Source of the DNA: Cenarchaeum symbiosum A
GTDB taxonomy: Archaea > Thermoproteota > Nitrososphaeria > Nitrososphaerales > Nitrosopumilaceae
Assembly: GCA_000200715.1 (NCBI GenBank)
Contig: DP000238.1
Coordinates: forward strand, 380,832 to 444,831
Reading direction: 5' to 3'
DNA length: 64,000 nt
Both the position numbers and the translations under genes were made by a program. Below, piece by piece: positions 24,488-61,400 of the stretch (positions are counted from its first letter, which is position 1; each line of letters starts with the position of its first letter). Below the pieces are notes generated by a model. The model was given only the letters and a program-made list of their open reading frames with translations. It ran no database searches and had not been told where the DNA came from.

Positions 24488-25024
24488 GGGTGCCTTTTGC
24501 CATGCTTTGCGCGCCCCGCCCGTGCGCCGCCCTGATGCCATGGGATGGGCGGCATCTCCGGGGGTTATTTGCCTTGTCCCCGGGGTGGAGGGATACACCA
24601 GGTTCTGGCATGCATTATACACTCTTGGATCAGCTTGTCACCCGGTACGGGATCCGGTCTTCCGGCCCGGGGACCTTGTCCCGATCTCACCCGGGATCGG
24701 TCTCAATCTTTATTATCGCCGCAAGGCAAGGATGGCATTATGACTGGATTGCTGGGAATTGCGCCTTCTGGCCGTGCCTTGAGTCTGCTAGATGCAGCCG
24801 GATTGCAGGTATGGGGCCTGACATGGCCGAATCCGGCACGGCGTTTTGAATCCATTAACCCTGGGCGGCAAAACTGCGGGGGGGGGGGGGCATCCGAGAA
24901 CAGGCGCCTGTTATGGGCCACGTCCGGTAGATATTCGTGAAGGGCGCGGTGCCGCATCGAGAACGGGCGCGCCTAGTACGCCCTGGACCAGAGGCGCTTT
25001 CAGCAATGAGGGCCGGTGCATCAT
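24488..25024. other. Intergenic region with promoter-like box and G13 tract
   Basis: A 537-bp stretch between divergent genes. It holds a TATA-like box (CTTTATTAT, 24710-24718), a possible small ORF from 24740, and a run of 13 G (24878-24890). No tRNA, repeat or recognisable coding sequence was found in the rest. Confidence 0.5.
24740..24940 (+). CDS. Possible small ORF containing G13 tract
   Basis: A 66-codon frame beginning MTGLLGIAPSGRALSLLDA. Its only support is that ATG 24740 lies 26-27 nt from a TATA-like box, the pattern seen for many real genes here. The G13 run encodes GGGG, so one base more or less would change everything after residue ~50; the other two frames end at different stops. 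The protein resembles nothing I know and may be spurious. Confidence 0.25.
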   Translation: MTGLLGIAPSGRALSLLDAAGLQVWGLTWPNPARRFESINPGRQNCGGGGASENRRLLWATSGRYS

Positions 25025-27187
25025 ATGATCCGGGCGGGGGCCGGAATGGGGCATTTGATGCTGCTGGTGGCGGCATCCTTTGCCATTTCGGCACTACTTG
25101 CTCCGGCAAACGGGGAGGCCGGCGCGCAGATGCCGTATCCGCAATGCCAGGCGGTTCAAAAACCGGCACTGTTGGGCGATGTATCCGCACCGCCACTCTC
25201 GGTGGCGGCTGACAAGAGCGCATATTCGTACGGCGATATCGTCTACATATCCGGAAGGACCAGCTCCCTTTTTGGATCGGGCCCGGCCGACACGCTGCTT
25301 TTGATAAATCCCCTTGGAAACGCGATAGTTGTGGCCAAACCCGAACCCCGTCCTGACGGCATGCTTGCCATGGCAGTGGCGGCGGGGGGGCCGATGTGGG
25401 CGGGGGGCACATATGAAATCAGGGTCCGGGACGGGACACTCGAGGCCTCTGATACATTTGAGTACTCGGGGAACATAACTGACCGCAGGCCCGACTTTGA
25501 TCCGATAGCGTCAATGCCGGCCCTTTCAGTGGGCACTGACAGGCCCGGATACTTTAGGGGCGACGCCGTGACCGTCGCCGGAAGAATCTGGGACCTGTCT
25601 GATTATCCGCAGGATGTCACCATAACCGTGTTTGACAATTCCAGCGGGGACGCCGTCCTGCCGGCGCAAAACCCCGGCCTGCTCTCCCGCGGCTTTGCAC
25701 TGATAGCCGCGGCCCAGGTTTCTCCCACGGCAGGCGGGTATTATGAATCGCCAGTACAGACTGACGGCCCCCAATGGAGATGGGCCGGGGAGCGCGTGGT
25801 TCTGGCCCAGTACGGGGGCAGGCAATCGGCCTGCATGTTTGACTATTCTGCAACCGACTGGACCCCGTTTGAGTTTGCCGCCGGCGGCGGGGATGCGTTA
25901 GACGGGTCCACCATCGGCCTCACACCGGGCGACACGCTGGTCATAACGCCCAACGAGCTCACCGGCAATTCACAGGCCGCCTTTGACATGGAAGTGATCC
26001 TCTCCGATGCAGGCGGAAGCGCGGCCAGCGTGTATTACAACAGTGTGGGCGCCTTTCTTGGAAAGACATGCGGCGGGGAGGTCATCACATCAGGCCTGAT
26101 CTATACGTGCGACGAAAAATCGGTAATACTCGGGGGCGCCACATACTCAACCCGGGGCACGTACCTTGACAGCATTGGCATACCGTTCCAGGACGGCTTT
26201 GAAGGAACACTGAGCATATTTCTGCGTGACAGCCGGGGCGTACCGCTGGCCACCCATGACACGGACCGATACACGATATCCGCCGTCCCCGCCGGGCCGT
26301 CCCCTGAACTGCCCACCGAGCCGCGGCCATCCCCGGTTGTCAGGTCGCGCGGCGGCGGGGGAGGGGGCGGAGGCGGCGGAGGCGGAGGCGGCGCACCGGC
26401 AATGGGCGCAGGCCTTGGACAGGCGGTATCCCTTGGATTTACGGCCCACGGGGATGACGTACTGGACGGATCTGAGATAAGCCTTGATCCGGGTGATCCA
26501 CTGATCATATCCGTATCGTCCATGGACGGGGATCCAATCAGCATCTATGATCTGGAGATAACAATGACCGGAAAGGAGGGGCAGCAGGCGGACGTATACT
26601 ACAACAGGATAGGCGCATTTTACGGAAGGGAATGCGGCATCAACGCAACGACTTCGGGCAACATGTACACCTGCGATGTGTCATCGCTCATATCGCAGGG
26701 CAGTGCGCGCTATTCACACTCTGCAAACGGCTCACTCGAGAGCATTACCATACCCTTGGAAGGGGAGTTCTCCGGCACCCTTAGCATAGCCCCGCGTGAC
26801 AACCAGGGCCTGCTGCTTGCACCGCGTGAAGGCAGCGTGTACAGGGTGAGCGCGGCAGAACTGCCCCCCGTTGAGCCTGACGTTCCCGCAGACAGCCCAC
26901 CGGATCAGCAGATACCCACAGCACATGTGGTGGATGCCCAGCAGGCCCGGCCTGAGCCTGACATGGATCTAGAGCCCGAGGAGCCTGCCCCGGAGCCCCC
27001 CCATGCAGCCGGTTCAAGAGCCCGCAGTACAGCCGACTCCCCCGGAGCCTGCCACAGTACAGGCACCGCCCGGTGTAGAGTCCACGCCTGCCGAACCATC
27101 CAACGTATCGCAGGCACATGCCGGGCCTCAGGACGAGGACTATCTGGGGATGCTCGTGGAGTTTCTAAGATCTGCGCTGGGGCTTGA
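25025..27187 (+). CDS. Secreted surface protein with two C-x12-C domains; 3' end frameshifted
   Basis: Large exported protein. A signal segment (MIRAGAGMGHLMLLVAASFAIS) is followed by two Ig/macroglobulin-like domains (ADKSAYSYGDIVYISGR and TDRPGYFRGDAVTVAGR, ~55-145 and 165-270). Two copies of a ~140-aa beta domain come next, separated by a 14-Gly linker (26350-26391). Each copy has the DGS-I-L-GD opening, VYYN-GAF and an invariant C-x12-C pair (GKTC...YTCD; GREC...YTCD). A Pro/Glu-rich stalk follows. The same C-terminal domain ends the giant protein at 45.7 kb. After 27002 the frame runs into Arg/Cys-rich nonsense; the expected tail is in the next frame. GTG 25016 and ATG 25046 are alternative starts. 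Likely a cell-surface protein (inference). Confidence 0.8.
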   Translation: MIRAGAGMGHLMLLVAASFAISALLAPANGEAGAQMPYPQCQAVQKPALLGDVSAPPLSVAADKSAYSYGDIVYISGRTSSLFGSGPADTLLLINPLGNAIVVAKPEPRPDGMLAMAVAAGGPMWAGGTYEIRVRDGTLEASDTFEYSGNITDRRPDFDPIASMPALSVGTDRPGYFRGDAVTVAGRIWDLSDYPQDVTITVFDNSSGDAVLPAQNPGLLSRGFALIAAAQVSPTAGGYYESPVQTDGPQWRWAGERVVLAQYGGRQSACMFDYSATDWTPFEFAAGGGDALDGSTIGLTPGDTLVITPNELTGNSQAAFDMEVILSDAGGSAASVYYNSVGAFLGKTCGGEVITSGLIYTCDEKSVILGGATYSTRGTYLDSIGIPFQDGFEGTLSIFLRDSRGVPLATHDTDRYTISAVPAGPSPELPTEPRPSPVVRSRGGGGGGGGGGGGGGAPAMGAGLGQAVSLGFTAHGDDVLDGSEISLDPGDPLIISVSSMDGDPISIYDLEITMTGKEGQQADVYYNRIGAFYGRECGINATTSGNMYTCDVSSLISQGSARYSHSANGSLESITIPLEGEFSGTLSIAPRDNQGLLLAPREGSVYRVSAAELPPVEPDVPADSPPDQQIPTAHVVDAQQARPEPDMDLEPEEPAPEPPHAAGSRARSTADSPGACHSTGTARCRVHACRTIQRIAGTCRASGRGLSGDARGVSKICAGA
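26996..27002 (+). other. C7 tract: apparent +1 frameshift site
   Basis: Seven C's follow GAG. With six, the reading would continue E-P-P-M-Q-P-V-Q-E into an open, Pro/Glu-rich frame. The extra base is a sequencing error, a real mutation, or a slippery switch; the sequence alone cannot decide. Confidence 0.7.
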
Positions 27188-27221
27188 CGGCACAGATGCC
27201 ACCGGGAATGCTGAAGGATAG
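27003..27221 (+). pseudogene. Out-of-frame C-terminal tail of the surface protein
   Basis: This frame continues the Pro/Glu stalk (QPVQEPAVQPTPPEPATVQ) and ends with an amphipathic segment, YLGMLVEFLRSALGL, then DGTDATGNAEG. The segment aligns without gaps to the last 15 residues of the giant protein (ILDAIIGFFRSLFGM), sharing F-x-R-S-x-x-G. It is the likely native terminus, cut off by the C7 tract. If joined, the protein would be about 731 aa from ATG 25025. Confidence 0.75.
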
Positions 27222-45663: not shown

Positions 45664-46450
45664 TCACATTCCGAACAGGGATCTAAAGAAGCCGATTATT
45701 GCATCCAGGATGCCCTCGCCGGGTTCTGTCTCCGGGCCCGCATCGGCAGGCTCCATGGCGGGCGAATCCGGCTCCATCTCGGGCTCTGCCACGGCGGGCT
45801 CCGGATCCATCTCCGGGGGAACCTCGGGCTCGGATGCGGGCGGCTCGGGCTCTGCCGCGGGCTCTGGCTCTGCTGCCGCAGGCTCGGGCTCCGGATCCAT
45901 CTCGGGCTCTGCCGCAGTCTCTGTTTCGGGCAGTGATACGGATACCGGTTCTGTCTCGGATAGTATCGTGTATGATCCCCTTTCATGGGACGCGAGCAGC
46001 AGGCCCTGGTTGTCGCGCAGCATTATCGTCATCCTGCCGGAGAAGCCGTCCTCGAAGGGTATGCTGATCTCCTCAAGCGATCCGCCTTTTGCGGAATAGG
46101 ACGCCCCTCCGGATATGGCAGATGACATGTCACATGTGTGCACCCTGTCGGATGCGGTCATCTCGCCCTGGCACTCCTTGCCTATGAACGCGCCAAGCCT
46201 GTTGTAGTATACCTTCGCTGCTATACCCTCCGCGTCGGATAGTATCATTTCCATGTCATAGACGGTAGTCCCCCCGGGTGTCAGAACGGGGGCTATGCCC
46301 ATGGCTACCCCCTGTTCAAGGCGTATCAGGGGTAAATTCGGAACATCCTCGGCCCCGGTAAAGGTGAACGATACGTCATAGCCCAGGCTGTTCCCGCTTA
46401 TGGATACGCCGCTTCTGCTGCCGCCACCGCCCCCTCCTCCTCTGGGACTC
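45664..46450 (-). other. C-terminal anchor-like module of the giant protein
   Basis: In protein order: PRGGGGGGGSRSG linker; a ~130-aa domain with VYYNRLGAF, GKEC and HTCD (C-x12-C); IPFEDGFSGRMTIMLRDNQG; a ~75-aa stalk of Pro/Glu/Ala; and a terminal ILDAIIGFFRSLFGM. Every element recurs in the protein at 25.0-27.2 kb. Confidence 0.8.
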
Positions 46451-49400
46451 GGCTGGGGCGCCGGTTCAGGCGGCAGCACGGGTGGAGTCTCGTCTTCAGG
46501 AGTTGATCCGCGTTCGTCCAGTCCGGGCGCGTCCGAAGATGAGAGCCTCACGTCGACGCGCACCTTCTCGGATACTGCCGGGGCGTCTGACTTCCTGTCT
46601 ACGTTGACTATTGCATCTCCACGAGTCAACAGGCTTGGCGCGTCCGATGATGATAGACTCACGCCCACGCCTGCCCTGTCTGATACTGCCGGGGTCTCTG
46701 TCTCCCTGATCATACCTGAGATTGCCGAGTCCCCGCTAGTTGTCAGCCCAGGAGTATCTGCAACTGAGAGTTTCACGCCGATGCCTGCCTTGTCCGATAC
46801 TGCGGGCTCGTCGGGCGCCATTCTCATGCCGCCACTCGGGGCCAATCCGCCATCGCCCAGCTCCGGCGTATCTGAAACCTGCAGCTCTGCACCGATGGTC
46901 ACCCTGTCCGATACTGCGGGCTCGTCGGGCGCCATTCTCATGCCGCCACTCGGGGCCAATCCGCCATCGCCCAGCTCCGGCGTATCTGAAACCTGCAGCT
47001 CTGCACCGATGGTCACCCTGTCCGATACTGCGGGCTCGTCGGGCGCCATTCTCATGCCGCCACTCGGGGCACTCGCGCCATCTGCCAGCTCCGGCGTATC
47101 TGAAACCTGCAGCTCTGCACCGATGGTCACCCTGTCCGATACTGCGGGCTCGTCGGGCGCCATTCTCATGCCGCCACTCGGGGCACTCGCGCCATCTGCC
47201 AGCTCCGGCGTATCTGAAACCTGCAGCTCTGCGCCGATGGTCGCCCTGTCCGATACTGCGGGCTCATCAGGCGCCATTCTCATGCCGCCACTCGGGGCAC
47301 TCGCGCCATCACCCAGCTCCGGCGTATCTGAAACCTGCAGCCCTGCACCGATGGTCACCCTGTCCGATACTGCGGGCTCATCGGGCGCCATTCTCATGCC
47401 GCTGCCCGGGGCGGTCGCACCATCGCCCAGAACCGGCGCATCTGAAACCTGCAGCTTTGCACCAAAGCCCGAGCTTTCCGATACGCTCGGGGCATCCGAC
47501 TCATCGATTATGTTCACGCCCTCGACTGCCGACTCACCGCGTGTCTCCAGGCTGGGCGCATCCGAGGATGAGAGCCTTGCGCCGACTCCTGCCCCGTCGA
47601 ATGCGGCAAGCCCGTCTGCCGCGACCAAGTCAGTTGTATTCACGGCAGCTAGTATGCGAACAGGGTGCGTGCCCAGCTGATACCAGTGGACTGCGCCGAG
47701 CTGGGTAAAGGGATGGTCCGTAAAGAATATGCGCAGGCCGTCGGAGGAGAACGCCAGCCCGGTGGGGCCCCTGATCTTCCCCGCCACGCTGAAGGATCCC
47801 GTGTATTCCGCACTGCCCACATCGTATGCAGAACCAAGCTCATACCTGTTCACGCGGTCTGCGGCTCCGCTTAGTATGAACATCAAACGGCCGTCATCCG
47901 AGAATGCCACCTCCGTGGGATCCTCCCCTTGAGCAGCCACGCTGAAGTTTGCCCCAAGGGAGTCGGCCGGAATGGATCCGCCCAGCTCGTACTGCCCCGC
48001 AAGACTGTATTCATACACGGCATCTTCTGCGGTGCCCACGACAAAGAGCCCCTCCCCGTCTGGCGTAAACGCAATACCGTTGGGGGATGCCTCGGATCCG
48101 CCAACGGAAAAGGATCCGTTGAGGGAGTGCGTCCCGGTAAGGTTGAGGGGGGATGCCAGGTCGTATCTGTGCACGCTGCCGCTCTGCCTGCCCACGACAA
48201 AGAACGAGCTGCCGTCGGCCGAAAAGTCCACGTCCCGGGGCCTGTTGTCTTCGGCGGTGGTGTTAAAGAATCCGCGGTACGTGGCAGTCGACAGGTCAAA
48301 CGGCTGGTCCACCGTGTACCTGTATACCGCCCCCCTGCCTATCCCCGAGACCAGCATGGCGGTGCCGTCAGACGAGAACGCCACTCCCGTGATCCCGCCC
48401 TCTTGCAGGACGAACCTTCCCGTGGGTGGGCTGTCAAAACTGTACGGGCCGTAGAGCTCGTATTCGTGGATGGAATTGGCGGCAGAGTCCGTTATGAATA
48501 CAAGCCTGCCGTCGGCCGAGAATGCCAGATCCGTGGGTGTGCCCGAATCCACTGCGTCCAAAGATCCCGTGTACGAGTGCCCTGAGAGATTAAACGCATT
48601 ATCCAGCTCGTACCTGTGCAGCGAACCCGAGTCCGTTCCCGTTATGAACATGAGTGTGCCGTCGGCAGAGAACTCGACGCCCTGGGTGCTGTTCTCCTGG
48701 CCTGACACGTCAATGGAGACTCCGCTGTATATTGCAGTGCCGATGTCAAAGGCCGTGCCCAGCGTATACTGGTGGACTGCATCGCTGATCTGCCCCGCTA
48801 TAAACATCTGCAGCCCGTCGGGGGAGATGGCAATCCCCCGGGGCGACGGTGCCTCCGGCCGCACCCGGAACGTATCGCCCGTCGGAGTGGCGCCAACTAT
48901 GCTATACGGCTCTGCCAGCCTGTAGGCGTGGACGGTGTCGGCCGTCCCGCCGAGCACCAGCATCAGCCTACCCCCGTCTGCAAGGGCCAGCGCCACGGGC
49001 GCTATCCCCTGCGTTCCAAGGGAGTCGCCCGTGTATGCGGCGGTAGCTGTATCATAGGCCTCGGACAGGTTGTACTGGTGCACGGCGGCAGAGACCGTCC
49101 CCACAACCAGCATGCGCGTGCCGTCGGGAGAGAATGCCGCGTCCCGGAGGTCGCCCTCCTGGGCCGCCACATTCAGCGCGCCGCCGTATGCGGGCAGGGG
49201 CAGAGCAAACTGCCGCGGGAACCTACCGCCGCCCTCGCCGCTTAGCGCGCCGGCATCAAAGTGCAGCCGGGCGCTTGCATAGCCGAGTATCTCCACCAGG
49301 CCCTCCCTGGCCAGGCTGAATGAGACTGTATCATTGCCGCCTGTGCTTGCAAGCCCCGACAGCGCCAGCCCGGAAGTTTCATTGCCGTCCCTTATGTGGA

Positions 49401-52400
49401 TTCTTGACGCGTTTACCGTAGAGTGGTCGATGGGCTGATCAAAGGTAATGTGCAGCGTGCCCGCGCTGTCTACCTCTGCTAAGAGCAGCACTGGGATGGC
49501 GGGCGGCACCGCCGATGCACTGTCGGATATCTGCGGCGCATCCCGGGGAACGGCGATAGGGGGTAGATCAACCGGGTGTGTGCCCAGCAGGTACCAGTGG
49601 ACTGAGTCGGTGTCTTGTTCGGTAGTGAACATCCGCAGGCCGTCGGAGGAGAACGCCAGCCCGGTGTGGGCGCTGCCCTGCCCGCCCACATTGAAGGAGC
49701 CCGTGTATTCTGAGGTGCCTATCCCGTGGGCGGAACCGAGCCCGTACCTGAGCACAGAGTTTCCTGCGTCGCTTGCCGCGAACATGACGCGGCCGTCGGG
49801 TGAAAAGGACACCGCCGTGGGGCTGCCGCTCTGCCCCCTGACACTGAAGGATCCTGCAAGGGAGTTGGCCGGGTCGGAGTCGACAAGCTCGTACGGTCCC
49901 TCGAGCCTGTATTCCTGCACGGCATCCTCGGCAGTTCCCACAATGAACAACCCCTCCCCGTCTGGCGTGAACTCAAGGCCGGTGGGGCCCGACTCGGAAT
50001 CGCCGATGAAAAATGATCCGTTTAGCGAAGGATCTGTTATGTTGAATGGCGATGCCAGGTCGTACCTGTGCACACTGTCGCTCTGCCTGCCTATTATGAA
50101 TACAGAGCCGCCGTCTGCTGATAACTTCACGTCCCTCAAGTTGTTGTCCTGCGCGGAGACACTAAAGGTTCCAATCGATGCGGGTGCCGACAGGTCAAAT
50201 GGCGAATCCAACTCGTAGCCGAGCACCGCGTCCCTGACGTTTCCCGATATCAGCATGATTGTGCCGTCATCCGAGAATGCAACACCCGTGGGCTCCCCGT
50301 CGGGCAGGTCGAACGCTCCCGTGGGCGGGCCGTCGAAACTGTACGGGCCGTCCAACTCGTATTCGTTGATAGTATCAGGCCCAGAGTCTGATATGAATAC
50401 ACGCCTGCCGTCTGTTGAGAACGCCACCTCGGTGGGCACGTCCGTATCCTTGCCCACGTGCACAGACCCTGTGTACGAGTGCCCCGAGAGATCAAAGGCG
50501 CCGTCCAGCTCATATCTGTGCAGGGACAGGGAGTCTGCTCCTGTTATGAACACAAGCGTTCCGTCAGCCGAGAATGCGACGCCCTGGGGCCTGCCCTCCT
50601 GCCCCGATACGTCCATGGAGGATCCGCTGTATGCTGCCGTGCTGATATCAAAGGCCGTGCCCAGCAAATACTGGTGCACTGCATCGCTGCCGGACCCGAC
50701 TATGAAGAACCGCCGTCCGTCGGGGGAGATGGCAATACCCCTTGGCGCCTGTTCTTCCTGATCCACCAGTAATGTCTCCCCGGACGGGGCGGCGCCGCCC
50801 ACGTCGTAGGGCACAGCCAGCCTGTATGCATGGACGGTGTCGTCGGCCCCGCCGAGTACCAGCAGCAGCCTCCCGCCGTCTGCAAGCGCCAGGGATACGG
50901 GGGCTATCCCGGTTGTCGCAAGGGAGGTGCCCGTGTATGCGGCAGACGTCACGTCATGGGCTCCGCGCAGGTCGTACTGGTATATGGTATTGCTGCCAGT
51001 TCCGGCAACTAGCATGCGCATGCCGTCGGCCGAGAATGTCACGGCCTGGGTTATATCCTCCTGTTCCCTCACGCTGAACTCGTCCCTGTACGCGGGCAGG
51101 GGCAGAGCAAACTGCTGCGGGAAACTCCCGCCGTCCTCGCCGCTTAGCGCGTCAGCATCAAAGTGCAGCCGGGCTCTCGTATACCCGAGCACCGCCTCCA
51201 GGCCCTCCCGGTCCAGGTCGAAGGAGACGGTCTCATTGCTGCCTGAGCTTGCAAGCCCCGACAGCGCCAGCCCGGCGGTTTCATTGCCGTCCCTTATGTG
51301 GATCCTCGACGCGTTTACCGTAGAGTGGTCGATGGGCTGATCAAATGTAATGTGCAGCGTGCCCGTATTGTTTACCGCTGCCAAGTGCAGCACAGGGATG
51401 GCGGGCGGTGATGCTGATGCGGTGTCGGATACCTGCGGTGCATCCCGGGGAACGGCGACAGGGGGCAGATTAACCGGGTATGTGCCCAGCAAGAACCAGT
51501 GGACTGAGTCTGTGTCTTGCTTAGTGACGAACATGCGCAGGCCGTCGGAGGAGAACGCCAGGCCTGTCTGGATCCCGTCCTGCCCATCGACGCTAAAGGA
51601 GCCCGTGTATGCCGCGGTGTCTATTCCGTGGGCGGAACTGAGCCCGTACCTGAGCACGGCGTTTCCTGCGTCGCTTGCAGCGAACATGACGCGGCCGTCG
51701 GGTGAAAAGGACACCGCCGTGGGGTTGTCACTCTGCCCCCTGACACTGAAGGATCTTGCAAGGGAGCTGGCCGGATCGGCGCCGACAAGCTCGTACGGGC
51801 CCGCAAGCCTGTATTCCTGCACGGTATCCTCGGCAGTTCCCACAATGAACAACCCCTCCCCGTCTGGCGTGAACTCAAGGCCGGTGGGGCCCGACTCGGA
51901 ATCGCCGATGAAAAATGATCCGTTGAACGAAGGATCTGTTATGTTGAACGGGGATGCCAGGTCGTACCTGTACACGCTGTCCCTCTGCCTGCCTATTATG
52001 AATACAGAACCGCCGTCTGCTGATAATTCCACGTCCCGGACGTTGTCGTCCTCGGCGGAGACGCTGAAGGTCCCGATGGATACGGGTGCAGACAGGTCAA
52101 ACGGCGAATCCAGCTCGTAGCCGAAGACTGCGTCCCTGACGTTTCCCGATATCAGCATGATTGTGCCGTCATCCGAGAACGCAACACCCGTGGGCTCCCC
52201 GTCGGGCAGGCCGAATGTTCCCGTGGGCGGGCCTGCCAGGCTGTACGGTCCGTCTAGCTTGTATTCGTTGACTGTATCGGCCCCAGAGTCCGATATGAAC
52301 ACGCGCCTGCCGTCTGGTGAGAACGCCATCCCCGTGGGCACCCCCGTGTCCTTGCCCACATGCAGGGATCCCGTGTACGAGTGCCCCGAGAGGTCAAAGG

Positions 52401-55400
52401 GATCATCCAGCTCATACCTGTGCAGGGACAGGGAGTCCGCCCCGGTTATGAACATCAGGGTGCCGCCGGCCGAGAATGCAACATCCTGGGATCTTCCATC
52501 CTGCTCTGCCACGCTAATGGAATCCCCGCTGTAAACTGCCGTGCTGATGTCAAAGGCCGTGCCCAGTGAATACTGGTGCACAGCATCGCTGCCGGCCCCG
52601 ACTATAAAGATCCGCAGCCCGTCGGGGGAGATGGCCATCCCCCTTGGCGCCTGTTCTTCCTGTCTAACCTGGAATGTCTCCCCCGACCGGGTGGCGCCGC
52701 CCACGTCGTAGGGAACAGCCAGCCTGTATGCATGGACTCTATCGTCGGTCCCGCCGAGTACCAGCAGCAGCCTCCCGCCGTCCGCCAAAGCCAGCGCCAC
52801 GGGGCTTATCCCCGTCGTCGCAAGGGAGGTGCCCCTGTATACTGCAGACGTCACGTCATGGGCCTCCCGCAGGTTGTACTGGTGCACGGAATTGCTGCCC
52901 GACCCGGCAACTAGCATGCGCATGCCGTCGGCCGAGAACGCCACGCCCTGGGCGCTGCCCTCCTGCCCGCCCACACTGAACTCGTCCCTGTACGCGGGCA
53001 GTGGCAGCGCAAACTGCTGCGGGAAACTCTTCTCAAAGTTGCTGCTCAGCGCGCCTGCATCAAAGTGCAGGCGGGTGCTTGCATATCCGAGTATCTCCGC
53101 CAGCCCCTCCCCGGCCAGGTTGAAGGAGACGGTCTCGTTGCTGCCCAAGTTCGCAAGCCCCGACAGCGTAATCCCGGCAGTTTCATTGCCGTCCCTTACG
53201 TGGATTCTAGACGCGTTTACTGACGAGTGGTTGATGGGCTGATCAAACGTGACATTGAGCATCCCCGTCTTGTCTATTGCCGCCGAGAGCAGAACGGGGA
53301 TGCCGGGAGCCACTGCGGATGCGGCATCGTATACCTGCGGGGTGTCGCGCGCATCTGCGGCCGAGAACAGATCAACCGGGTACGTGCCCATCTGATACCA
53401 GTGTGCGCTGCCGCTGCCTAGCACGACTCCCGGCGCGTTAGTAAAGAACATGCGCAGGCCGTCGGGGCTGAACGCCAGCCCTTCTGGGTTGTTGCCCTGC
53501 TGCGCCACCCTGAAGGATCCTGCATATTCCATGCTGCCCACATCATAGGGCGAGCCAAGCTCGTACCTGCTTACGTGTTTTGCGGCCAGACTCAGCACGT
53601 ACATGACGCGGCCGTCCCCCGAGAAGGACACCCCCGTGGGATTCTCGCCCTGCTGCGCCACACTGAAGGAGCCCACAAGGGAATCGGACGGGGTGGAGCC
53701 GGACAGATTGTACGGCCCGGCAAGCCTGTATTCATGCACGGCATCTTCTGCGGTTCCCACGACGAACAGGCCCTCCCCGTCTGGCGTAAATGCAATGCCG
53801 CTGGGGGCCGACTCGGCATCGCCCACGGAAAAGGATCCTCTGCGGGTGGGAGGCGGGTCGGTATCATAGGGGGATACTAGCTCGTACTCGTGCACCCTGT
53901 CTCTCTGCTTTCCTACGATGAAGATGGATCCGCCATCCGTCGAAAAGACCACGTCCTGGGGGGAGCCGTCGGCGTCGGATATGGAAAAGGAGCTGAGGAA
54001 CCCGGACGTCGACAGATCAAACGGCTGGTCCAGCGTGTACCTGTATACCGCCCTCCTGTCAACCCCCGTGATTAACATGTGGGTGCCGTCTGCCGAAAAC
54101 GCCATTCCTGTGGCCGATTTATCAAGTGGTGCCTGGGTTCCCGTGGGGGGGCCGTCGAAACTGTACGGGCCGTCGAGCTCGTACTGGTGTATGGCGCCAG
54201 AAGAGTCCGGCATGAATGCAACCCTGCCTCCTGCCGAGAACGCCAGGCCGGCTACTGCGCCCGCGTCTCTCGCGTCCAGGGATCCCGTGTACGAGTGCCC
54301 AGAGAGGTCAAAGGCGCCATCCAGCTCGTACCTGTGCAGCGATGCCGAGCCCTGGCCAGCTATAAACATGAGCCTGCCGTCGGCCGAGAATGCGACGCCC
54401 TGGGGGCTGCCCTCCCGGCCCGATACGTCGATGGAGACTCCGCTGTATGCCGCCGTTCCTATGTTAAAGGCCGTGCCCAGGGAATACTGGTGCACGGCAC
54501 CGCCGCCCGACACTATGAATATACGCAGCCCGTCGGTGGAGACGGCCATTCCCCGGGGCGCGGGTGCCTCCGACTGTACCATGAACGTATCCCCCGTCAG
54601 GGCGGCATTGACTATCTCGTAGGGCTCTGCCAGGCTGTACGCATGCACGGTGTCATTGTCGAGGATCAGCATCAGCCTCCCGCCGTCAGCAAGAACCAGG
54701 GCCACGGGGTCTATCCCCGCCGTGGCGAAGGAGGCGCCTGCATACTCGGCGGACGTCACATCATGGGCCTCCGTCAGGTCATACTGGTGCACGGCGCTGC
54801 TGTTCGTACCTGCGACTAGCATGCGCGTCCCGTCGGGCGAGAATGCGACGCCCTGGGGGCCGTTCTGCTGCGCCGACACATTCAACGCTCCCCCGTACCT
54901 GGGCAGGGGCAGAGCAAACTGTTCCGGGAAACTTGTGCCGTTCTCGTCGTTTAGCGCGTCCGCGTCAAAGTGCAGCCGGGGGTTTGCATAACTGCTTATC
55001 TCCTCCCGGCCCTCCATGGTCAGGCCAAAGGAGACGGTGCTGCCGGTGCCGGAGCTTGCAATATTCACCTCCGACAGCGTGATTCCGTCTGCGTCGTTGC
55101 CGTCCCTTACGTGGATCCTTGACGCGTCTACTGTAGAGTGGTTTATGGGCAGGTCAAACACAATGTCCAGCATGTTCGCGTTGTTGATGGAGGCGGAGAG
55201 CAGCACGGGGCTGGGGGGACGCTCGGGAACCTCTATTATGAGTTCGGCTGTAGCGCCGTCGTCCACACCGGGTGTGCTCCTGCCAACTGCAACCGCGTCA
55301 CCTGCCATGCCGCCGTCATCTATGCCCGGCGCATCGCCTTTTGATATCTTTACCATGCGGGCCGTCGTGGCGCCGTCGTCCACGACGGGCGTGCTCTTTG

Positions 55401-58400
55401 CAATTGCATCTGTTCCTAGAACGGCTGCCGCGCCGTCGTCCACGACGGGCGTGCTCCTGGCAATTGCATCTGTTCCTAGAACGGCCGTGGCGCCGTCGTC
55501 CACGACGGGCGTGCTCCTGGCAATTGCATCTGTTCCTAGAACGGCTGTAGCGCCGTCGTCTACACCGGGCGTGCTCCTCGCAATTGCGTCGCCTAAGATA
55601 ACGGCTGCCGCATCGTCGTCATTGATGCTCGGCGCATCATCTTCCATTATAACGGCCAGCTTTGCCGTTTGCGGGCTGTCAGACACGCCTGGCGCATCAC
55701 CTGCGCTTATCCGCTCTATTCCAGCTGTCGGCATGCTGACGTTCAAATCCGGGGCGTCACCTGCCAGCACGTGGATGGGCACGGGGCCCGCCAGATCAAA
55801 CAGGTATACCAGATCCCTTTGCTGCCCAACAAAGAACAATCTCGAGCCGTCCTCTGAAAACGCAATTCCCCGGAGATCGTTTTCAAGCATCCCCACGTTG
55901 ATCAATCCCGTATACACGGCGGTCGAAAGATTGTACGCAGCGGTCATATCGTACCTATGTATGGAATCACTCGAGACCCCCGTCATGAACAGCCTCTTGC
56001 CGTCGGACGACAATGCAAGCCCGGTGGGATTGGTATCCCTTGCAAGTACATTGAGGGATTCTACATAGGCAGTGGTATTGTCAAGAGAATACGGGTTGCT
56101 TAGGATATAGTGATGTATTAACCGGTCCGTCTCGTCTATCATAAACAGGTCCGTCCCGTCAGACGAGAACCTAATTGCCGAGGGGCTGGTTACCGCCGCG
56201 TCTCCCGATGGCGCGTTTGCCGCGCTGCCGGTGATAAAGCTGCCTGCAAGCTGGGCCGTGGATACGTCAAATGCCGTGCTCAGACTGTATGTATGAATTG
56301 CCCGGCCGGTAACACGATCTGGATTAATGCTGGCGGAGGGCACGTCCCATCCCGCCAAGAACATCAGCGTCCCGTTGGGTGAGAACTCCATTGCGTTTAC
56401 GTTGGTGTCCTGGGGGCGAATGCTGGGCGAGTCATCCGACTGCACGGAGGTATGCAGGTCGTACGGCTGGCGGAGGGTATAGTCATGGACCATGTCCCGT
56501 AGGTTGTTGAATACTAGCACCGAGCCGCCGTCATTGCTTACGGATATGTCACTCGGAGTGGGATTACTGCCGTCGGTCACCGCAATGACCGCGGCGCGGG
56601 CAGACGAGGTTACATCATAGGGTGATGTCAGGTTGTACGTCTCTACGTTGTTGTTTCGGGACCCGACGATGAACATCTTTCTGCCGTCTCCAGAGAACGC
56701 CATATCGTTGGAATTGGGCTCGTCGTTGAACACCTCAGAGTCTATAAACAGGGAGCCCTTCAGGGTGTACGGCGTTAAAAGGTCGTACCTGTGCACAGTC
56801 TCGGTGTTATCCACTATGAAGAGCCTGTGCCCGTCTGACGAGTATGCAAGCCCCACAGGATTCAGCCCGTCCTGTATGCTAAACGGCGCCTCCACGGCGC
56901 CGGATATATCAAACGGGCTAGAAAGGTTGTATTCCTGTATAAAGCCGGGGTTTTCCACTGCAAGCAGCATGATGGTCCCTTCGGGGCTGAATACCACGTC
57001 CATCTGCGCATTGTTCTGCGCTGTAGTTATCTCGTACGTGTCGTTTTGCACGGCCGATGTTATGTTGTACGGAGTATCGAGTGTATACGAGTATACGTTC
57101 TGCCCGTCTCGCCCGGTGGTAAACATCCAGAGGCCGTCAGCGGAGAATTCCACGTCAAAGGGGCGATCGCGGGTGAGGCCAGGGGCAATGGCCGTGGTAT
57201 AAGAGTCTGCGGCTGCAGCAGTCGTCACAGCATAGGGGACTGCCAGGTCGTACGATTGTACGGTTCCCGCAGCATGAGTGGAGATGAACATCTGCAGGCC
57301 GTCAGAGGAAAATTCAATCCCCGTCGGGTTCCTGCCGGGCCCGTCCGGGTTGTCGTCCCGGTGGTACAGGTTGAAGGTGGGACCGTTACCCGCCCTGTCC
57401 CGGGCTACATCGTACGCTGCGCCAAGATCATATCTGTGCACTTCATCCCTCTGCGTGCCCGTGACAAAGAGCAGCCTCCCGTCGGCAGATGCCGCCATCC
57501 CCTCCGGGTTGTTGTCCTGGCTCCGGACCAGCAGGGATCCCACATACCCCGCGGTGGATATATCGTGCGGCTCGTCTATTCCGTACATGTACACCCTGTC
57601 GTCTTCTCCGCCGAGCACCAGCATGTTGCGGCCGTCTTCTGAGACTGTGACCCCGCGGGGCAAATCATCCTGTAATACCGTGCTAAAGTTTCCCGCATGG
57701 ACGGGCTGGATGGTTATGTCATATGGGCTTGACAGGTTGTACTGTTGTATGGCGCCGTTGTCCGCCCCCGATAGGTACAACCGGGTGCCGTTGCGGCCAA
57801 AGTCAACCCCCGTGACCAGGCCATCCTCGGCCGCGCCAAAGCTGCCCCCGGGTACGGGGGCGGGACTGAAGCCAAACGGGGTCGCCAGTGCATACTGGTG
57901 TATGTTTCCCGAGCCGCCGGCGACGAACAGACCGAGTCCGTCTGCGGAGAATGCCAGCCCGCGGGGGTCCTCCTCCTGGGCGTTCACGTTGTGCGAGCCG
58001 TCAATTCTTGCCGAGGATATGTCGTAGGGCTGTTCGAGCACATACCGGAATATAGTATTCTGGTCGAGACCCACCGTGATCATTATCCTGCCGTCCGCCG
58101 AGAATGCAAGCCCCTGCGGCGATCCCTCGGTGTTGTTGAGGTTTATTGATGCCGTGTCCAGCCCGTACGGGTACAGCGAATCCGGGAGCCTGTATCCTAT
58201 ATCGGGCAGTCCCTGCCCGAGCGCCCCGATTTCGACCCGCAGCCGGGGATCCGCGTAATCCCGCACCAGGTCCAGTTTGTTCCCGTCCAGCACATAGCGC
58301 AGACTGTTATCCACGGCCTGCTCAAACTCGCCGATGGACAGGGGTATCCGCCCGGCTGGCGCATACCCGTCGGCGATGCTGATCAAGCCGTGTTCTACAT

Positions 58401-61400
58401 TGCCTGCGTTCACCAATCCGTCAAAGGTTATCTCCAGTACGCCGCTGCTGTACAGCACGGTGGAAACGACCTGCCGCGCGGTCGCCACTATCCCGTCTAC
58501 GCCAGTGTGCTCTGCGCCGTCGCTCACTACGGGCGCACTTGTCCCTTCTGCAACATGCTTTCCCTCCACACGGGGCGCCCCATCGTCTGCAATGCCCGGC
58601 GCATCATCTCCTGATATTGTGCCCATGCGGGCTGTCGTGGCCCCGTCGCTAACTCCGGGCTTACTTGTCCCTTCTGCAACATCCTTGCCCATTACTTTTG
58701 GCTTGCCGCCGTCTATAACGCCTGGCGCATCATCTCCTGATATTGTGCCCATGCGGGCTGTCGTGGCGCCGTCGCTAACTACGGGCTTACTTGTCCCTTC
58801 TGCAACATCCTTGCCCATTACTTTTGGCTTGCCGCCGTCTATAACGCCCGGCGCATCATCTCCTGATATTGTGCCCATGCGGGCTGTAATGGCGCCGTCG
58901 CTAACTACGGGCTTACTTGTCCCTTCTGCAACATCCTTGCCCATTACTTTTGGCTTGCCGCCGTCTATAACGCCCGGCGCATCATCTCCTGATATTGTGC
59001 CCATGCGGGCTGTAATGGCGCCGTCGCTAACTACGGGCTTACTTGTCCCTTCTGCAACATCCTTGCCCAATACTTTTGGCTTGCCGCCGTCTATAACGCC
59101 TGGCGCATCATCTCCTGTTATGTTCAGGTCCCGCGGAGCCGCGGCCCTAATGCCGATCGGATGCGTGCCGAGCTGATACGAATAGACGGCGTCGGCGCCC
59201 GCATCGGTAAAGAACAAGCGCAGGCCGTCGGAGGAGAAAGCCATCCCGGTGGGGGACCTGCCCTGATCCCTCACACTGTATGATCCCGCGTATTCCGCGG
59301 TGTCCGTGTCATGCGCAGAGTCGAGCTCGTACCTTAGCACGGCGTCTCTACTGTCGCTTATAGTTAGCATGACATGCCCGTCGGGTGAAAAGTACAAGCC
59401 CGTGGGGTTGTTGCCCTGATCCCTCACACTGAAGGATCTGACAAGGGATTCGGACGGCCTGGAGCCTCCCAGGTCGTACGGGCCCGCAAGGTTGTACCTG
59501 AACACCGTGTCTTCTGTGACGCCCACTACGAATAGCACTGTACCGTCTGGCGTGAATGCAAAATCGGTGGAGGCCGTCTCGGATCCAAACACGGAAAAGA
59601 ATCCGGCGACGGGGGGCGCAGTTATGTTGTAGGGGGATGCCAGGTCGTACCTGAGCACGCGGTCGAACTGCCTGCCTATGATGAATAGCGAGCTGCCGTC
59701 TGCAGAAAAGTCCACGTCCCGCGGCGAGCTGTCCTGAAAGCTGGTGCTAAATGATTCAATGGGCACCGGCGCCGACAGGTCAAACGGGGGATCCAGCGCA
59801 AACCCGTACACCATGTCCCCGCCGTTCCCCGAGACGACCATGACGGTGCCGTCCGCCGATAACGCCATTCCGGTGGGTTCTGAATCTGACAGCCCGTACA
59901 TGGAAACGGGGGGGCCGCCAAAGCCGTACGGGCCGTCGAGCTCATACTCGTGGATTGCTCCAGAGTTCATATCAGATATGAATACAAGCCTGCCGTCGGC
60001 CGAAAAGGCCAGGCCGCTGGGCGTCCCCAAATTATTCCTCATGAACAGGGACCCCGCGTACGTGTGCCCCGACAGGTCAAAGGGATCATCCAGCTCGTAC
60101 CTGTGCAGCGAATCAGAGCTTGTCCCCGTTATGAACATGAGTGTGCCGTCTGCCGAGAATGCCACGCCCTGGGCGGACCCCTCCTGCCCGGCTATGCTGG
60201 CGGAATCCCCGCTGTAAGCTGCCGTGCTGATGTTAAAGGCCGTGCCCAATTCATACTGGTGGACTGCATCGCTGAGCTGCCCCGTTATGAACATCCGCAT
60301 CCCGTCGGGGGAGACTGCAATGCCCCGGGGCGCCTGTTCCTGCGGCCGAACGGGCAACGTGTCCCCGGTCTTGGCGGCACCGCTTATGTCGTAGGGCTCT
60401 GCAAGGCTGTACGCATGCACTCTGTCGGCAGTCCCTCCAAGGACAAGCAGCAGCCTTCCCCCGTCCGCTAGCTCCAGCGCCACGGGATCTATCCCCGGAG
60501 TCTCAAAGAATATTCCCGTGTACTCTGCGGACGTCACGTCATAGGCTTTTGGCAGCTCGTACTGGTGCACAGAGCTGTTCCCAGTACCTGCCAATAGCAT
60601 GCGCATGCCGTCGGGCGAAAATGCCACCCCGTGGGCGGTCTCCACCTGCCCTGCCACACCAAACGCGCCCCCGTATGCGGGCAGGGGCAGCGCAAACGGC
60701 ACGGGGAATGGATCCCCCGTGGCGTCCCTGAGGGCATCGGCATCAAAGTGCAGCCGGGGGCTCGAATAACCGAGTATCTCCCGGAGGCGCTCGTCTGGCA
60801 GCATAAAGGAGATGGTGTTGTTGTCGGCAGGATCCGCAAGTTCCACCTCCAGCAGCGTCAGGCCGGCGGTGGAGTTGCTGTCCCTCACATGGATCCTCGA
60901 CGCGTTTACCGTCGAATGGTCTATCAACTGGTCGAACGCGATGCTCAGGACGCCATCCGCGTCGGCGGTTACAGAGGTCACCCTGGGCCTTGGGGTGGTA
61001 ACGGCAGATGCGCCGTCGGAGAATAGCGGACTGTCCGAGGCTGCACCGGACAGGACGATCCCGACCGGGTACGTGCCCAGCTCATACCAGTGGATCGAAT
61101 CGGTGCCCGGGTCGGTAAAGAACAAGTGTAGGCCGTCTGCCGAGTATGCAAGCCCCGTGGGGGATCTGCCCTGATTCTTCACGCTAAATGAGCCCGCGTA
61201 TTCGGCGGTGTCTATATCGTAGGCGGCTCCAAGCTCGTACCTGAGCACAAAGCCCCTGTCGTCGCTTGCAACAAGCATGACATTCCCGCCGGGCAAAAAG
61301 TACACATCAGTAGGGCGGTCCCCCCGTGCCCCGAGATTGAAGGATCCGACAAGGGAGTCGGTGGGCACGGAGCTATTCAGGTCGTATGGGCCCGCAAGGC

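Follow-up and report, generated by a model that had tools for sequence, protein, structure and literature searches.

A conserved C-terminal tail lies out of frame behind a C7 run in one member of a 32-gene surface-protein family of Cenarchaeum symbiosum A

The window analyzed here (64,000 nucleotides, positions 380,832 to 444,831 of contig DP000238.1 of Cenarchaeum symbiosum A, whose genome is a single contig of 2,045,086 bases) contains an open reading frame, ORF 25016-27187, that passes through seven consecutive cytosines close to its 3' end. This raises the question of whether the proper end of the protein has been put out of frame at the C7 run and, if so, whether the run is a switch for that end or an ordinary stretch of proline codons whose length is wrong by one base. 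Translation and alignment of the part of the gene ahead of the run revealed a signal-peptide-like start, an N-terminal domain, two copies of a module and a Pro/Glu stalk (Table 1). Elsewhere in the genome the ORF matched the modules of 31 sister genes, defining a family of 32 genes whose open frames range from 623 to 12,016 aa and together occupy 297 kb, approximately 14.5% of the genome. Its module contains the Cys pair and the preceding polyglycine and, when aligned to those of the 31 sisters, retains the invariant Cys and Gly columns. The DNA of each sister gene was read to its stop, and in all 31 the stalk and the tail were in frame: each protein ends in a stalk that is rich in Pro and mostly also in Glu, and behind it a tail resembling FxxIIxFFRSLFG, with a few sisters having additional residues behind it and one (L036) being strongly diverged. 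The stalk and tail of ORF 25016-27187 are not in the frame of its module; they are present in the +1 frame after C7, which from 27003 reads MQPVQEPAVQPTPPEPATVQAPPGVESTPAEPSNVSQAHAGPQDEDYLGMLVEFLRSALGLDGTDATGNAEG. One base at C7 thus separates the ORF frame from the tail frame, giving two different products.

Table 1. Position of the features discussed (window coordinates, except where genome positions are indicated).
Feature	Position	Strand	Details
Long G/C tracts at 5' ends of family genes	window 24878-24890; genome C1 503350, 598936, 839948, 1387616, 1909800, 1915815		L090, L091, L092, L096, L100, L101
G13 tract, intergenic	24878..24890	+	126-138 bp upstream of GTG at 25016; candidate switch
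ORF 25016-27187	25016..27187	+	723 aa; GTG start at 25016; stop 27185-27187
Surface-protein ORF in coding frame up to C run	25016..26995	+	660 aa
Probable signal peptide region, MIRAGAGMGHLMLLVAASFAISALLAPANGEAGAQ	25025..25129	+	putative, read from translation
First module copy	25829..26302	+	aligned to second copy and to module of giant protein
Second module and start of stalk (Pro/Glu)	26303..26995	+	27-46% identity to 31 sister modules
Polyglycine run preceding second module	26351..26392	+	family feature
C7 run, coding frame lost	26996..27002	+	Pro-Pro-His (CCC CCC CAT) in ORF frame
Arg/Cys-rich out-of-family extension and stop, ORF frame	27003..27187	+	codon score -0.51 bits/codon
Remaining stalk, family tail and stop, +1 frame	27003..27220	+	no internal stops; stop codon 27218-27220
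Amphipathic tail helix, YLGMLVEFLRSALGL	27141..27185	+	profile 27.3 bits; hydrophobic moment 0.49
Giant sister protein	45664..63954	-	has this module, stalk and tail, all in frame; tail located at 45717-45667

The displacement of the tail was assessed with two scores. A profile built from the tails of the 31 sister genes gave 27.3 bits for EDYLGMLVEFLRSALGL; among all the stop-free 17-mers that the six reading frames of the window yield (86,812), just one, the tail of the giant protein, was higher (52.4 bits), and the next-best 17-mer after these two reached 9.3 bits. A codon-usage score, trained on the other long ORFs of the window (mostly the giant family ORF), fell in the ORF frame from +0.34 bits/codon before C7 (26303-26995) to -0.51 after it, and rose in the +1 frame from -0.53 to +0.10. 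The best single frame switch according to codon usage was located between 26974 and 27075, with a score of 84.6 with the switch versus 47.1 without it; within this interval C7 is the sole run of at least six bases, and there is a C5 at 27039. The profile and codon-usage results confirmed the observation from which the analysis started, namely that the family C-terminus of ORF 25016-27187 sits in the +1 frame after C7.

Accordingly, the preliminary description was right in placing a conserved tail out of frame at C7, since the profile detects the tail and codon usage shifts frame at the same place; in describing the ORF frame behind the run as Arg/Cys-rich (its codon score is non-coding); and in attributing the separation of the two frames to one base, on which frames, codon score and profile agree. 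Two of its details required correction. The next frame does carry the Pro/Glu stalk into YLGMLVEFLRSALGL, but the protein does not end there and extends 11 residues further (DGTDATGNAEG); and the likeness of the tail to that of the giant protein, although correct, is shared with all 31 sister genes rather than with the giant alone. Its interpretation held in part: a genuine, conserved tail is indeed put out of frame at C7, but the case for C7 as a switch is weak, runs of this kind being at chance level in the stalks (see below). What the C7 finding provides is a corrected C-terminus for one protein, and it reveals a conserved tail common to all 32 members of the family.

This tail is strongly amphipathic (hydrophobic moment 0.49-0.70 versus 0.25 in shuffles), and its helix is probably an anchor that binds the membrane or the envelope. 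An AlphaFold2 model of the end of the giant sister, calculated from three window sequences, was of low confidence (pLDDT 62) and showed an all-beta module, a stalk in unstructured coil and a terminal helix. Foldseek matches to this model (p53 core, rmsd about 8-13) were judged meaningless. The family is one of secreted surface proteins in which a polyglycine run and an all-beta module are followed by a Pro/Glu stalk and, at the C-terminus, by a short amphipathic helix. In having a short conserved C-terminal element behind a Pro-rich low-complexity stalk, it is like secreted proteins of the sortase LPXTG and archaeosortase PGF-CTERM types. Sorting signals of those types contain a transmembrane segment that terminates in basic residues, whereas the family tail is an amphipathic helix of approximately 15 residues with an internal Arg-Ser.

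A search of 200 genomes of the taxonomic family found relatives of part of the N-terminal region in 193 of them. A profile covering module, stalk and tail gave nothing convincing against 120 other genomes of the taxonomic family, the two weak matches including one in G010 that was chance-like on inspection, and a single-protein scan of genome contigs detected no relatives outside the source genome. Pfam contained no match for the protein or its module, NCBIfam only weak sub-threshold low-complexity matches to either (none of them usable), and the PDB sequences no match for the module. Within the coding sequence of the polyglycine and the module, runs of at least six G were counted in the C-terminal ORFs of the 31 sisters (L009-L039): one was seen, versus 25.6 expected from synonymous shuffles. 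G runs are thus strongly avoided in this part of the family genes, as would be expected if selection acted there against slippage.

The C7 run itself is most likely a run of proline codons at which one base has been gained or lost by chance, through an error or an indel, and we put the probability of this reading at roughly three in four. The run would be an ordinary one, one base off frame in the consensus, and not a dedicated switch; the cause would be either a mistake in sequencing or assembly or an indel of one base that is private to the sequenced clone. In synonymous-codon shuffles, 2.7 +/- 1.5 runs of at least seven C were expected in the 31 family stalks and two were seen, while across the C-terminal ORFs there were nine runs of at least six C versus 17.2 expected. 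The tract is therefore neither longer nor commoner in stalks than coding constraints give. Moreover, two sister genes hold a C7 and remain in frame. Both the shuffle rate in the stalks and these two sisters argue for a chance run, and the fact that all 31 sister tails are in frame while the tail and the coding signal of ORF 25016-27187 lie in the +1 frame argues that its C7 is off frame. Besides this run, the window has seven in-ORF G/C runs of seven, six of which fall inside family genes or inside genes whose Pfam domains lie along one frame; extrapolated from the window density, the genome would contain approximately 350 G/C runs of at least seven. What counts against a chance error or indel is that the site of the break coincides with a homopolymer, which is what slippage predicts; a polymorphic mixture of C6 and C7 molecules is conceivable.

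In a survey of frameshifted genes, lone cases were ascribed to indels or sequencing error, and those near the 3' end were more often real indels (PMC3711429). By that survey, the position of the present break near the 3' end, with nearly all of the protein intact, would favor a real indel over an error. ORF 25016-27187 is like the GeneTack singletons of that survey in being one family member broken by one base near its 3' end while the others are intact, and unlike them in that the break is on a homopolymer and that further family breaks occur in the same genome. If the copy is real, the protein would have intact modules and no tail helix, and might be shed or mislocalized.

Three other explanations for C7 were weighed against the chance run. 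According to the one proposed by the preliminary description, C7 is a phase-variation tract at which slipped-strand mispairing toggles between a tailed, anchored protein and a tail-less one in parts of the population. In its favor, the archaeon is probably host-associated and the gene codes for a surface protein; the break coincides with a homopolymer, the genome yielded no MutS homologue, and several family genes have long G/C tracts at their 5' ends. Poly-G/C tracts of at least seven bases mark phase-variable loci in Campylobacter jejuni (PMC4965091), and a change from 8C to 7C has been recorded for mga (PMC11868660). In such contingency loci, in C. jejuni, Neisseria and the C8/C7 case of mga, one base in a G/C run sets the frame of a surface-protein gene, as it does here, and the longer 5'-end runs of related genes are a further point in common. 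Unlike those bacterial tracts, the run in this archaeon has only seven bases, lies at the 3' end and occurs at the frequency that chance gives for proline codons, and it is known from one consensus sequence with a single tract length. The absence of enrichment in stalks, the abundance of C7 runs across the genome and the two sisters that keep theirs in frame all stand against a switch, as does the fact that the long-tract class of this genome begins at 11 bases (15 runs), runs of 8 to 10 numbering only 13. Phase variation at C7 is therefore unlikely; in the family it is still plausible, but at the G/C tracts of 11-17 bases near the 5' ends.

Recoding, in which a +1 slip of the ribosome on CCC-CCC-C or a slip of RNA polymerase yields both C-termini from one gene, would agree with the direction of the required shift, and CCC-C is prone to +1 slippage. 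Nevertheless, the first frame stays open for 61 codons with neither a stop nor an obvious stalling site directly after C7, the shift site is not conserved among homologues, none of the 31 sisters needing a shift at this place, and two of them read C7 in frame. These data make recoding very improbable. That evolution has recently made a genuine C-terminus of the Arg/Cys-rich frame is harder still to credit: those same 61 open codons speak for it, but their codon score is that of non-coding sequence, and the tail frame scores positively, is free of stops and has kept its likeness to the family tail.

Any evolved on/off switching of the family would more likely reside in the G/C tracts of 11-17 bases at the 5' ends of its genes, which on the basis of sequence are better switch candidates than C7. 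Using a Markov model of the window, approximately 180 G/C runs of at least eight were expected in the genome and 28 were found, and approximately five of at least 11 were expected and 15 were found (lengths 11-17). Runs of 8-10 are hence depleted genome-wide and those of at least 11 in excess. For seven of the 15 long runs, including the G13 upstream of ORF 25016-27187, the distance to the 5' end of the open frame of a family gene is no more than about 135 bp, two of them (in L019 and L022, related neighbors) possibly representing one event in this count. If the tracts were distributed at random among gene starts, this would have a P of about 1.5e-9 by gene share (for a gene count that we take to be about 2,017), and under a deliberately lenient share of 14.5% P = 0.003. 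The placement of the tracts varies. L017 has a C13 directly behind a TATA-like stretch, which its sister L014 shares without having a tract; L033 has a G12 three bases upstream of the ATG of its signal peptide, where sister L021 has only five G's; L019 and L022 each have a G11 in the leader; and a C17 lies ahead of L032. In L035 (1381 aa; L139, C1 503406-499261, minus strand) a C12 at 503350-503361 stands between a frame resembling a signal peptide and the frame of the body: the former (MTGISYAVLAAVVLVHVTEAGALPG...) enters the tract and stops just past it, and the body is in another frame. As sequenced, this arrangement would correspond to the classic anatomy of a contingency locus. A fusion of ORF 25016-27187 to the upstream leader ORF through its G13 was considered and discarded because the gene's own frame contains a stop immediately upstream of its start.

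No MutS homologue was detected in the genome with a search that was positive in 11 of the 14 control genomes. We tentatively propose that this archaeal symbiont may use the 5' poly-G/C tracts of a lineage-restricted surface family as contingency switches, without MutS-type mismatch repair, in seven of the 32 genes including ORF 25016-27187, with C7 having no more than a secondary role in switching the anchoring tail. If the tracts of 11-17 bases vary among cells, the archaeon would randomize its surface toward the host, as many host-associated bacteria do. A literature search on phase variation in the genus found nothing related, and a review states that explaining phase variation would benefit from mapping such loci across archaea (PMC11868660). 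A warning comes from a genome of the same genus (G001; L145-L164), which contains 178 G/C runs of at least 11 in 3.2 Mb, most genomes of the taxonomic family having none. Its sampled stretches have 70% GC, the tracts lie mostly outside coding stretches (by the codon score trained on the window), and no obvious surface-gene pattern was seen in 20 sampled regions. Such tracts can thus arise neutrally, which counts against reading the 5' tracts as switches.

Other frame breaks were found in the family. Five sister genes (L011, L018, L020, L029 and L031) have clear breaks at the 5' edge of their open frames without any run above five bases, which would be errors or real indels, and one further break, in L035, is at the C12. 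Breaks that have nothing to do with long tracts are therefore frequent in the family, which speaks for a chance event at C7 as well. Including ORF 25016-27187, the 297 kb of the family contain seven breaks, or about one per 42 kb, be they errors or real indels. From their 5' edges (L115, L122, L124, L133 and L135, respectively), the first five genes continue upstream in another frame, the absence of homopolymers above five bases applying to the interval that could hold each break.

Inspection by eye of further tracts in the genome showed a G12 at the junction of a glycosyltransferase-like and a UDP-GlcNAc 2-epimerase-like gene (L093, C1 1049891-1049902) and a G12 in frame inside a methyltransferase-like gene (L094, C1 1061485-1061496). 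On the minus strand, a TATA-like stretch is closely followed by a G11 whose end is one base upstream of the ATG of an ORF that has a signal peptide but does not belong to the family (L098, C1 1681999-1682009). A G13 lies in a coding stretch whose frame apparently breaks at the tract (L088, C1 219284-219296), and two C8 runs (L102, C1 1903768 and 1903801) are part of a 33-base tandem repeat within one 784-aa ORF.
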